The position numbers and the translations under genes are program-made. The notes beneath the pieces are model-generated. The model did not search any database, was not told the origin of the DNA, and saw only the letters and a list, made by a program, of their open reading frames with translations. 64,000 nt of DNA from Brevibacillus sedimenti (GTDB taxonomy: Bacteria > Bacillota > Bacilli > Brevibacillales > Brevibacillaceae): assembly GCF_020923495.1 (NCBI RefSeq), contig NZ_CP064048.1, forward strand, positions 1,142,501 through 1,206,500. Direction: 5' to 3'. How positions within the stretch are numbered: the stretch's first letter is position 1; each line of letters starts with the position of its first letter. This document shows positions 14,556 to 64,000 of this stretch, piece by piece.

Positions 14556-14714
14556 TTGAATTTGGTATTAACCGAAAGACAATGTCGAGTATGTCGGGTT
14601 CGTCTGACGGAGTATGAAATTGAAAACAACAACGAGCTATGCATGGATTGTTATAAAGAAAAACGTGAAGATGCTGAAACGAAAGCGAACCTGGGCAAAA
14701 AGCCGTCTCTCTGA
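14556..14714 (+). CDS. Small four-cysteine zinc-ribbon-like protein
   Basis: The 52-residue protein has CRVC and, 21 residues on, CMDC: two CxxC knuckles that should bind one zinc, followed by a charged tail (KEKREDAETKANLGKK). The TTG at 14556 has AAAGGGG eight bases upstream. The upstream in-frame ATG at 14502 has no Shine-Dalgarno. The stop codon lies inside the stem of its own terminator, the hairpin later split by the palindromic element. No specific family is recognised. Confidence 0.6.
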   Translation: MNLVLTERQCRVCRVRLTEYEIENNNELCMDCYKEKREDAETKANLGKKPSL

Positions 14715-14726
14715 TGGGAGACGGCT
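14701..14726 (+). repeat. Left target duplication (terminator hairpin), element copy 1
   Basis: A 26-base stem-loop (AGCCGTCTC / GAGACGGCT arms), identical to 15065-15090. It keeps the upstream A-run but has lost the T-run, which is now on the right copy. Confidence 0.85.
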
Positions 14727-15064
14727 CAGCATGTAGACAAAGTCCGTGGCGCATGGGTGATCGGGCCCGCTCGCTCTCTTGACGCCCAGCAAAGAAGTGG
14801 ATGATGTCCGCTCCAAAACGCGACGCGGGCAGGGGGCAAACATCTGGGTGTTTCGACGAAGTGAGACTTGTGCCCCCTGTTTATCCCCGCGTCTTTCGTT
14901 TTTCCGCTGAGCAGGTCGTCAAAGGAGCTCGCTTGGCCCATCCCTCCATGCGATGTACGTTGTCTTCAGCTTCGGTTGATGAATGTGCAGGCCTTCCGGC
15001 CTGGAAATTATGAAAATCGTTTTCTTGTGGACGCTTACTAAATAAACAGTTTGTCTTCAATCTG
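14727..15064 (+). mobile_element. 338-bp palindromic non-autonomous element, copy 1
   Basis: The element is bounded by imperfect inverted repeats: CAGCATGTAGACAAAG at the left end and the reverse of CAGATTGAAGACAAAC at the right, matching at 12 of 16 positions. The first 225 bases differ from copy 2 (47052-47391) at only about ten positions. The inside is one long imperfect hairpin around the core GACGCGGGCAGGGGGCA / TGCCCCCTG...CCCGCGTC, then a smaller hairpin CAGGCCTTCCGGCCTG. Frames on both strands are shadows of the palindrome with no conserved coding. The 3' third is more diverged than in copy 2. Confidence 0.75.
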
Positions 15065-15090
15065 AGCCGTCTCTCTGATGGGAGACGGCT
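15065..15090 (+). repeat. Right target duplication with the functional T-run
   Basis: An exact copy of 14701-14726 followed by TTTTC. It is now the working terminator copy. Confidence 0.85.
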
Positions 15091-45872: not shown

Positions 45873-46128
45873 AAGCCACTTTGTCTACATCCTGCGCTGC
45901 GTGGACGGGACCTATTACACCGGGTATGCCACGGAATTGGCCCGCCGCATCCGGGAGCACAATGAGGGCAGAGGGGCCAAGTACACGCGGGGCCGAGGGC
46001 CGGTGGAGCTGATGTATTGGGAAGAAGGAACGGACCGCTCGTGGGGAATCAGGCGGGAGGAAGCGATCAAACGCCTGACCCGCTCGCAAAAGGAAGAACT
46101 GATCGAGGAAGGTGGTCGTACGTCATGA
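45823..46128 (+). CDS. yazA: GIY-YIG domain nuclease-like protein YazA
   Basis: The 101-residue protein has the GIY-YIG core FVYILRCVDGTYYTGYATEL and the catalytic Arg region RRIREHNEGRGAKYTRGRGP. Members are small and of unknown biological role. The GTG at 45823 has GGAGAGG six bases upstream. It overlaps yabB by 50 bases and rsmI by four (ATGA), giving a tightly coupled trio. Confidence 0.9.
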   Translation: MKNCRKSISESEIPSHKSHFVYILRCVDGTYYTGYATELARRIREHNEGRGAKYTRGRGPVELMYWEEGTDRSWGIRREEAIKRLTRSQKEELIEEGGRTS

Positions 46129-47009
46129 ACGTCCAGCGCAGTTTCACCGACGAACATACAGGGGTCCTCTACCTGGTGGCCACGCCCATCGGCAACCTGG
46201 ACGACATCACGGTTCGCTGTCTGGAAACGCTGCGGACTGTCGATGTGATCGCCTGCGAAGACACCCGGCAAACCCGCAAGCTGCTGAACCATTTTCAGAT
46301 TGAGAAGCGGACGGTCAGCTACCACGAGCACAACAAGGAGGCCAGCGGCAGCGGTCTCTTGCAATGGCTGGCGGAAGGAAAGCGGATTGCTCTGGTGAGT
46401 GACGCCGGACTGCCCGCCATCTCCGACCCGGGGGCCGATCTGGTGCGGGATGCTGTGGCGGCCGGCTTTCCCGTAATTCCTGTCCCCGGCGCAAACGCCG
46501 CGCTGACCGCGCTGATTGCTTCCGGCCTGCCGACAGACCGCTTCGTGTTTTGCGGTTTTTTGCCGCGCGAGAACAAAGCGCGCCGGGAAGAACTGCAGCG
46601 GTTGGAGCGCTATCCGGAGACGCTGCTGTTTTACGAAGCGCCCCATCGTATCGTGAAAACGCTCCAGGCCATCCGGGAAGCCTGGGGCGATCGCCGTGCC
46701 GTGCTGGCGCGGGAATTGACCAAGCGCTACGAAGAGTTTGCCCGCGGCACGCTGGGCGATCTGATTGACTTGCTGGCGGCGGGGGAGGCGCGAGGCGAGT
46801 ACTGCTTGATCGTGGAAGGATACCGCGGCGAGCCGGTCGTTCCGGAAGAAGAAGCGGCCTGGTGGCAGCCGCTTGACATCCGGGAGCATGTCGACCGCTA
46901 CTGCGAGCAAGGCATGAGCAAAAAGGAAGCGATCAAACAGGCAGCAGAGGATCGCGGCCTGTCAAAGCGGGACGTCTACAATGAATACCACCGCGATCCG
47001 CAAGCGTGA
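46125..47009 (+). CDS. rsmI: 16S rRNA C1402 2'-O-methyltransferase
   Basis: The 294-residue tetrapyrrole-methylase-fold protein contains LYLVATPIGNLDDITVRCLE, CEDTRQTRKLLNHF, SDAGLPAISDPGADLVRDAV and IPVPGANAALTALIASGL. It methylates the ribose of C1402 in the decoding centre. The ATG overlaps the yazA stop. Its terminator has been split by element copy 2. Confidence 0.95.
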   Translation: MNVQRSFTDEHTGVLYLVATPIGNLDDITVRCLETLRTVDVIACEDTRQTRKLLNHFQIEKRTVSYHEHNKEASGSGLLQWLAEGKRIALVSDAGLPAISDPGADLVRDAVAAGFPVIPVPGANAALTALIASGLPTDRFVFCGFLPRENKARREELQRLERYPETLLFYEAPHRIVKTLQAIREAWGDRRAVLARELTKRYEEFARGTLGDLIDLLAAGEARGEYCLIVEGYRGEPVVPEEEAAWWQPLDIREHVDRYCEQGMSKKEAIKQAAEDRGLSKRDVYNEYHRDPQA

Positions 47010-47021
47010 TCGCACGCATGA

Positions 47022-47051
47022 AAAAAGGCCGGGGGGTCATCCCCGACCTTT
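47022..47051 (+). repeat. Left target duplication (rsmI terminator hairpin), element copy 2
   Basis: A 30-base stem-loop with arms AAAGGCCGGGG and CCCCGACCTTT. It differs from 47392-47421 at two positions, one of which breaks a stem pair, so this copy is decaying. Confidence 0.8.
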
Positions 47052-47391
47052 CAGCGTGTAGACAAAGTCCGTGGCGCATGGGTGATCGGGCCCGCTCGCT
47101 CTCTTGACGACCAGCAAAGAAGTGGAAGATGTCCGCTCAAAAACGCGACGCGGGCAGGGGGCAAACATCTGGGTATTTCAATGAAGTGAGACTTGTGCCC
47201 CCTGTTTTTTCCCGCGTCTTTCGTTTTTCCGCTGAGCAGGTCGTCAAAGGAGCTCGCTTGGCCCATCACTCCATGCCTGTACTTTATCTCCACCTTCGGT
47301 TGATCAATATGCAGGCCTTTCGGCCTGACAATGATGGAATGGTTTCCTTGCGGAATCTCATTAATAACGAAGTACATTTTGTCTTCAGTCT
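47052..47391 (+). mobile_element. 340-bp palindromic non-autonomous element, copy 2
   Basis: It starts CAGCGTGTAGACAAAG and ends GTCTTCAGTCT, the same inverted ends as copy 1 (14727-15064). The outer arm ATGGGTGAT...ATCACTCCAT, the middle arm TTGACGACC...GGTCGTCAA and the inner arms AAAAACG...CGTTTTT and GACGCGGG...CCCGCGTC give a nearly continuous hairpin over about 47075-47280. The 3' part folds separately (TGTACTT...AAGTACA enclosing CAGGCCTTTCGGCCTG and GGTTTCC/GGAATC). There is no conserved open frame. Confidence 0.75.
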
Positions 47392-47421
47392 AAAAAGGCC
47401 GGGGAGTCATCCCCGGCCTTT
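47392..47421 (+). repeat. Right target duplication, working rsmI terminator
   Basis: Arms AAAGGCCGGGG / CCCCGGCCTTT pair perfectly and run into TTTTTC. The loop is the same as in the left copy. Confidence 0.8.
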
Positions 47422-47481
47422 TTCGTTTTTATGGCAGCAATCTGCTCAACGAAAAGCGGCGCTATATGGTTGAGCGGACGA

Positions 47482-47733
47482 TTAGCGCTTGACCGCAGGC
47501 AGTTCGTTCAGGCAGTCCTGGCAAATGATTTTGCCTTTGAAATAGGAAACACGGTCAGCGTTACCGCAGAAAATACAAGCAGGCTCGTACTTTTTCAGGA
47601 TGATGCGCTCTCCGTCCACGTAAATTTCCAACGCGTCTTTTTCGGCGATGCCCAGGGTGCGGCGCAGTTCGATCGGAATCACCACGCGGCCCAGCTCGTC
47701 CACCTTACGTACAATCCCCGTCGATTTCATCAT
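47482..47733 (-). CDS. abrB: Transition-state regulator AbrB with zinc-ribbon C terminus
   Basis: The 83-residue protein has an N-terminal swapped-hairpin DNA-binding domain almost identical to B. subtilis AbrB (MKSTGIVRKVDELGRVVIPI, then ELRRTLGIAEKDALEIYVDG). The C-terminal part is quite different from B. subtilis: CIFCGNADRVSYFKGKIICQ with a following DC gives two CxxC pairs that should bind zinc. AbrB represses post-exponential genes until Spo0A-P lowers it. The promoter and a Spo0A box are upstream. Confidence 0.95.
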   Translation of the reverse strand: MMKSTGIVRKVDELGRVVIPIELRRTLGIAEKDALEIYVDGERIILKKYEPACIFCGNADRVSYFKGKIICQDCLNELPAVKR

Positions 47734-63966: not shown

Positions 63967-64000
63967 AGTGGCTCCTGCCCCGGATGTTTGGGGCTCAGCG

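Follow-up and report, generated by a model that had tools for sequence, protein, structure and literature searches.

A small mobile element of 341 bp without a transposase gene (MITE) lies inside the terminator hairpin between rsmI and abrB in Brevibacillus sedimenti and is bordered on each side by a whole copy of that hairpin, an outcome which a published model of transposition had drawn as a possibility. The window analysed here is a stretch of 64,000 nucleotides (contig NZ_CP064048.1, positions 1,142,501 to 1,206,500, forward strand) from a single-contig genome of 3.93 Mb (referred to as G000). It contains two copies of the element and the first bases of a third. The observation of the first-pass annotation, i.e., a second copy of the same element, 32 kb from the first and with a different hairpin duplicated, was confirmed, with one correction: the right end is one base further than had been given, since most full copies end with ...CTTCAGTCTG, and here the last base reads A. 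The features of the window are as follows (window positions).

14701 to 14726, no strand assigned: left hairpin of copy 1 (26-bp direct repeat)
14727 to 15064, plus strand: MITE copy 1
15065 to 15090, no strand assigned: right hairpin of copy 1, followed by a T-run
46125 to 47009, plus strand: rsmI (name from the first-pass annotation; start approximate, open frame 46017-47009), whose terminator was hit
47023 to 47051, no strand assigned: left copy of the duplicated target hairpin, carrying both base changes
47052 to 47392, plus strand: MITE copy 2 (341 bp)
47052 to 47067, plus strand: left terminal inverted repeat CAGCGTGTAGACAAAG
47130 to 47234, plus strand: structured core, TGTCCGCT-stem-stem-AACATCTGGGTnnnTCnnnGnnGTGAGACT-stem-stem-CCGCTG
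47377 to 47392, minus strand: right terminal inverted repeat TAGACTGAAGACAAAA (most copies CAGACTGAAGACAAAC)
47393 to 47421, no strand assigned: right copy of the target hairpin, which keeps the T-run; terminator-like at 47392-47423
47482 to 47733, minus strand: abrB-like gene (83 aa), convergent with rsmI; named after the first-pass annotation and the AbrB N-terminus, without a family search
63976 to 63995, no strand assigned: left hairpin of the third copy (20-bp direct repeat, 19 of 20)
63996 to 64000, plus strand: first bases of a third copy of 169 bp (G000 1206496-1206664), running off the window

Copies 1 and 2 match at 215 of the first 225 bases (95.6%; about 95 percent had been counted by hand) and at 304 of 343 columns of the whole alignment. 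The stem-loops flanking copy 2 are 29–30 bp long and differ at two positions (28 of 30), and only the right one scores as terminator-like with a T-run. The hairpin of copy 1 is unrelated in sequence. Frames of 108 and 114 aa overlap copy 2, but were not searched against protein families.

A core pattern of 29 bases occurs 54 times in the genome with up to 3 mismatches, and not at all in the reversed control. A 19-mer of the left end was found at 81 places within 3 mismatches (2 in the reversed control), and a 17-mer of the right end at 53 places within 2 mismatches (1 in the reversed control). Ninety-one stretches around the core, left-end, right-end and similarity places were retrieved, and both ends were found for 50 copies, which range from 169 to 344 bp; 49 of 99 candidate rows with only one end were left out, some of these being chance matches or truncated copies. 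Copy numbers are lower bounds, since the whole-genome searches scored only the best candidates (40 of 106 in the similarity search of this genome). In 40 of the 50 copies the two flanks share a direct repeat of 18–38 bp, which was required to start within 5 bases of the right end and 2 bases of the left end, against 5 of 1522 when left and right flanks of different copies were paired. Of the 40 repeats, 36 score as palindromes at 0.8 or more, against 5.8% of 398 nearby 26-mers; the palindrome and T-run scores are simple measures devised for this analysis. A second measure, comparing the direct with the inverted match of the two flanks, gave 40 direct, 3 flipped and 7 with none or a tie, although the two sets of 40 differ by two copies (L117 and the 891466 copy of L061, among the stretches retrieved). 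In the three flipped cases, at G000 12898, 1732746 and 3292721 (the last by a slim margin), the left hairpin matches the reverse complement of the right one better than the right one itself. Tandem arrays of three elements (656356-657346) and two elements (891131-891830) share intervening hairpins, as expected when a duplicated hairpin is hit again. After 992574 and beside 891131 the same sequence (tggtcaagaccccattttgtagacac...) follows the right hairpin of two copies, in one case cutting the hairpin, and is perhaps another mobile element. Two elements of 299 and 303 bp, at 1685691 and 1732746, have the same ends but an unrelated interior and are also next to hairpins: a second type of MITE on the same mover.

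It had been stated beforehand, in the first-pass annotation, that a survey showing most copies outside of terminators would speak against target choice by structure. Such a survey was made and did not give this result: 32 of the 40 repeats have a T-run after the right copy, an A-run before the left copy, or both. Since 8 of 40 have neither, the target is better described as a stem-loop than as a terminator. A preference of orientation relative to the T-run did not hold; 18 T-only against 5 A-only cases among the MITEs (p 0.011) suggested a preference for the transcribed strand, but copies of related insertion sequences (see below) gave 2 against 7, and the pooled p is 0.22. Gene orientation judged by open-frame length was uninformative in this sequence.

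Unoccupied sites, which had also been proposed as a check for the rsmI-abrB interval, were found. A sister genome (G022), 94% identical over 511 bases of rsmI, has one hairpin in this interval. When the flanks of copy 2 were mapped to its contig C9, the left flank ended at 96670 and the right flank started at 96697, the overlap of 28 bases being the hairpin, which is identical to the right-hand copy in the window over these bases. Therefore, both base changes arose in the left hairpin of copy 2, as the first-pass annotation had guessed. Copies 1 and 3 also have a single hairpin in G022, with some base differences, so that there is an empty site for all three copies touching the window. The same interval was inspected by eye in the other 24 genomes of the genus, and none showed the element; in one (L217) no abrB was found at this place. 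A fourth case is provided by a prophage-like contig, where a copy flanked by a duplicated hairpin lies between a 182-aa frame and a 600-aa frame which looks like a tape-measure gene; it is present in two near-identical IMG/VR records (L240, L241; one event), whereas three relatives (L242-L244, two of them alike) have one hairpin there. The copy lies inside a phage-tail-like gene cluster, so that the element can travel with phage-like DNA. Searches of phage and plasmid collections gave no match for this MITE or for an element from genome G206 (see below), and an exact scan of genome contigs with a 25-mer of the element gave no hit, although records very near to the genome of the window may have been left out of that scan.

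With respect to the source of the transposase, a search with PF13751 found one broken transposase gene in this genome, in two frames at 1369199-1369554. This relic ends with ...GTTTGTCTTCAATCTG, as does copy 1 (16 bp), and is followed at once by a hairpin with a T-run. Its two pieces match the IS1182 transposase model NF033551 with 63.5 and 72.3 bits, each far below the whole-protein cut-off of 270 bits. Directly upstream, on the other strand, lies a 407-aa frame (L069, 761-1984) that looks like an IS21-type transposase gene. A protein with the PF13751 domain (L191) from G031 (Brevibacillus sp. SYP-B805) is ISNCY-like rather than IS1182 and was not used. Among 39 genomes of the family, matches over the cut-off were found in 10; no match at E 1e-20 is present in the genome of the window, and the mover is therefore inferred from a relic and from other genomes.

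In four genomes (G032, G160, G019 and G014) the ends of the IS1182-type elements, which are 1.53–1.55 kb long, are those of the MITE or close to them (CAGCSTGTAGACAAA, or CAGGCTGTCGAGAAAG in the last two). These genomes were chosen for further analysis because of their MITE-like ends. Elements of G032 and G160 exceed the NF033551 cut-off with an open transposase frame; those of G019 and G014 match below it, in two pieces with stops, and these 12 copies may be dead. Of 28 loci examined one (L353) was dropped, since its right end was not found; flush direct repeats of 15–31 bp were present in 22 of the remaining 27 (G032 7 of 12, G160 3 of 3, G019 6 of 6, G014 6 of 6), against 1 of 600 in the mispaired control, and 21 of the 22 repeats are hairpins. 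G032 and G160 alone account for 10 of 15. First and last base of the repeat are complementary in 16 of 22 cases. The MITEs share only 17–19 bp of identical left-end sequence with the closest of these elements (copies L350 and L352 of G032). A small inverted repeat followed by a T-run was seen by eye just inside the left ends of L332, L352 and L350, perhaps a terminator against outside transcription. Matches in G011, G009, G008 and G001 have different ends, and the two copies read in each (8 in all) showed no hairpin repeat by eye; they are a natural contrast, although the G001 match is below the IS1182 cut-off.

The interpretation given in the first-pass annotation, that the duplication belongs to the target and that the target is chosen by structure, is supported by these data, since the hairpins differ from site to site and empty sites hold one copy, and since 36 of the 40 MITE repeats and 21 of the 22 repeats around IS1182-type relatives score as hairpins; the link to IS1182 and the structured core had not been seen. 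The element is very likely a MITE moved in trans by an IS1182-family DDE transposase. The analysis itself demonstrates that it is far too short for a transposase gene, that it shares its left-end sequence with end-to-end IS1182-type elements of another genome of the family and its right end with a broken one in this genome, that it sits in one hairpin duplicated on both sides while the unoccupied site holds one, and that related IS1182-type elements show the same duplication. It is an inference that the transposase recognises a stem-loop (as a cruciform, or as a hairpin on a displaced strand) and joins the two element ends at the two 5' feet, and that gap repair copies the whole stem-loop, so that the target duplication would have the length of the hairpin (15–38 bp) and no fixed sequence; no reaction was observed, and formation of a cruciform or hairpin is not shown. 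The flipped hairpins, which are not predicted by the simple model, the copies without a repeat and the incomplete complementarity at the repeat ends are not explained; some may be due to later recombination or decay. In this view one hairpin with its T-run remains, termination is probably preserved and insertion probably nearly harmless, which would explain the high copy number.

The closest system is IS1272/TnSha1 of Staphylococcus (PMC4923244, PMC5678879), which has an IS1182-family transposase and targets inverted repeats without sequence preference, several of them being terminators confirmed by RNA-seq. IS1272 deletes or replaces the stem-loop and makes no target duplication; duplication corresponds to "pathway b" of the model of Wan et al. 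(PMC5678879), drawn as a possibility. The review of Siguier et al. 2015 is cited in these two papers as saying that some members of the IS1182 family target palindromes, without data for whole-hairpin duplication in the text consulted; ISfinder lists direct repeats of 0–60 bp for the family, and curators may thus have seen long repeats. Bacterial MITEs (PMC10969869) are likewise short, mostly intergenic and of high copy number, with terminal repeats of an autonomous relative and a stably folded transcript; the present element differs by a target duplication of variable length equal to a hairpin and by a structured core shared with elements of unrelated ends. Stem-loop repeat families such as bcr1 and Bhal-1 (PMC2267715) are interspersed, structured repeats in Bacilli; the text consulted says nothing on terminator hairpins. 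Families of this kind (Petrillo et al. 2008) were considered for the core, but no sequences were compared. Literature searches, which did not extend to most subscription journals or to ISfinder, listed no paper that by title or start of abstract describes this MITE or whole-hairpin duplication by IS1182-type elements.

Inside the MITE, positions 47130-47234 hold the structured core (100.9 bits). A model built from 16 cores found it in 20 of 299 genomes of Bacilli, including this one, at the scoring limit of 12 matches per genome or just so in 7 of them. On 64 aligned cores 18 of 18 modelled pairs show changes on both sides, 93.9% of cells pair, and the covariation score is 0.604, whereas slid controls reach at most 0.142. 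Since this alignment was fitted to a model of the same structure, an anchored test was carried out on 47 distinct P2 and 41 distinct P3 arms with a recognised loop out of the 64 cores; 33 of 47 and 37 of 41, respectively, reached the threshold in cis, against 4.9% and 16.2% in trans. The loop letters AACATCTGGGT and GAGAC and the flanking CCGCT mostly stay while the stems change. Rfam searches gave no match over the element at the curated score, only scores far below the cut-offs, and no core match in six loci of other genomes. In G027 and G031 the surrounding element is again of the kind with IS1182 ends, with hairpin repeats at several copies by eye. In G210 (L303-L311) it has 14-bp ends, TAGAAGCGTTGTGA with up to 3 differences, unrelated to the IS1182 ends and found on both sides in six of nine loci. 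In G216 and G206 (L278-L287, L294-L302) the elements have no clear inverted repeats, and many of the 19 loci end, on the right, beside an A-run and hairpin (by eye, not counted). Elsewhere in the survey of the core, the loci L152 and L170 were not inspected. The core is absent from the 18 IS1182-type loci and two relic loci searched. Whether the paired molecule is RNA or DNA is left undecided by the data: G.T and A.C cells number 22 and 19 in four helices (P3 alone 17 and 6, P2 alone 4 and 7), both strands of the element fold better than all 100 shuffles, and no transcription data were examined. In the favoured reading the core is a separate, conserved module within the MITE; its function is unknown.

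Other explanations appear much less likely for the insertion itself. Stem-loop replacement as in IS1272 would involve the same transposase family and kind of target, but the stem-loop is present twice in 40 of 50 MITE copies and 22 of 27 IS copies, and the empty sites read hold one; this reading is contradicted. The same applies to the notion that the hairpins, which are nearly always present, are the element's own ends, since their sequences differ from site to site (by eye) while the ends are constant, and a single hairpin of matching sequence lies at the empty sites. Group IIC introns insert beside terminators, and the core looks RNA-like, but an entry by such an RNA-based route is very improbable in view of terminal inverted repeats shared with a DDE transposon and flush target duplications around those relatives; intron structures were sought only by way of Rfam.

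For the core, it is possible, although rather unlikely, that it is a mere by-product, i.e., arms of long inverted repeats kept alike by copying at the DNA level, with loops conserved by common descent only. The lack of a clearly favoured strand and the absence of the core from the IS1182-type loci would be compatible with this; the constancy of loops and CCGCT flanks while stems change between genera, and the occurrence of the same core in elements with unrelated ends, argue against it. It is about as likely as not that the core is an undescribed, conserved structured module (RNA, or single-stranded or cruciform DNA), which has been taken up by several unrelated families of small mobile elements across Bacilli: with IS1182 ends in Brevibacillaceae, with TAGAAGCGTTGTGA ends in another family (G210), and in elements ending beside hairpins in a third (G206, G216). 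In that case, terminator-seeking MITEs are vehicles which place this module in 3' untranslated regions genome-wide.

The element supplies dozens of natural insertions, four of them with an empty site, for a form of structure-directed transposition, the duplication of a whole stem-loop, which the papers cited above propose only as a possible branch of the IS1272 model. The question whether the point of strand joining, at the 5' or the 3' feet of a cruciform, decides between duplicating and deleting a terminator thereby becomes testable. The covarying core is a candidate for a new class of structured element. The data also suggest how an element can reach high copy number harmlessly, by leaving a terminator behind.
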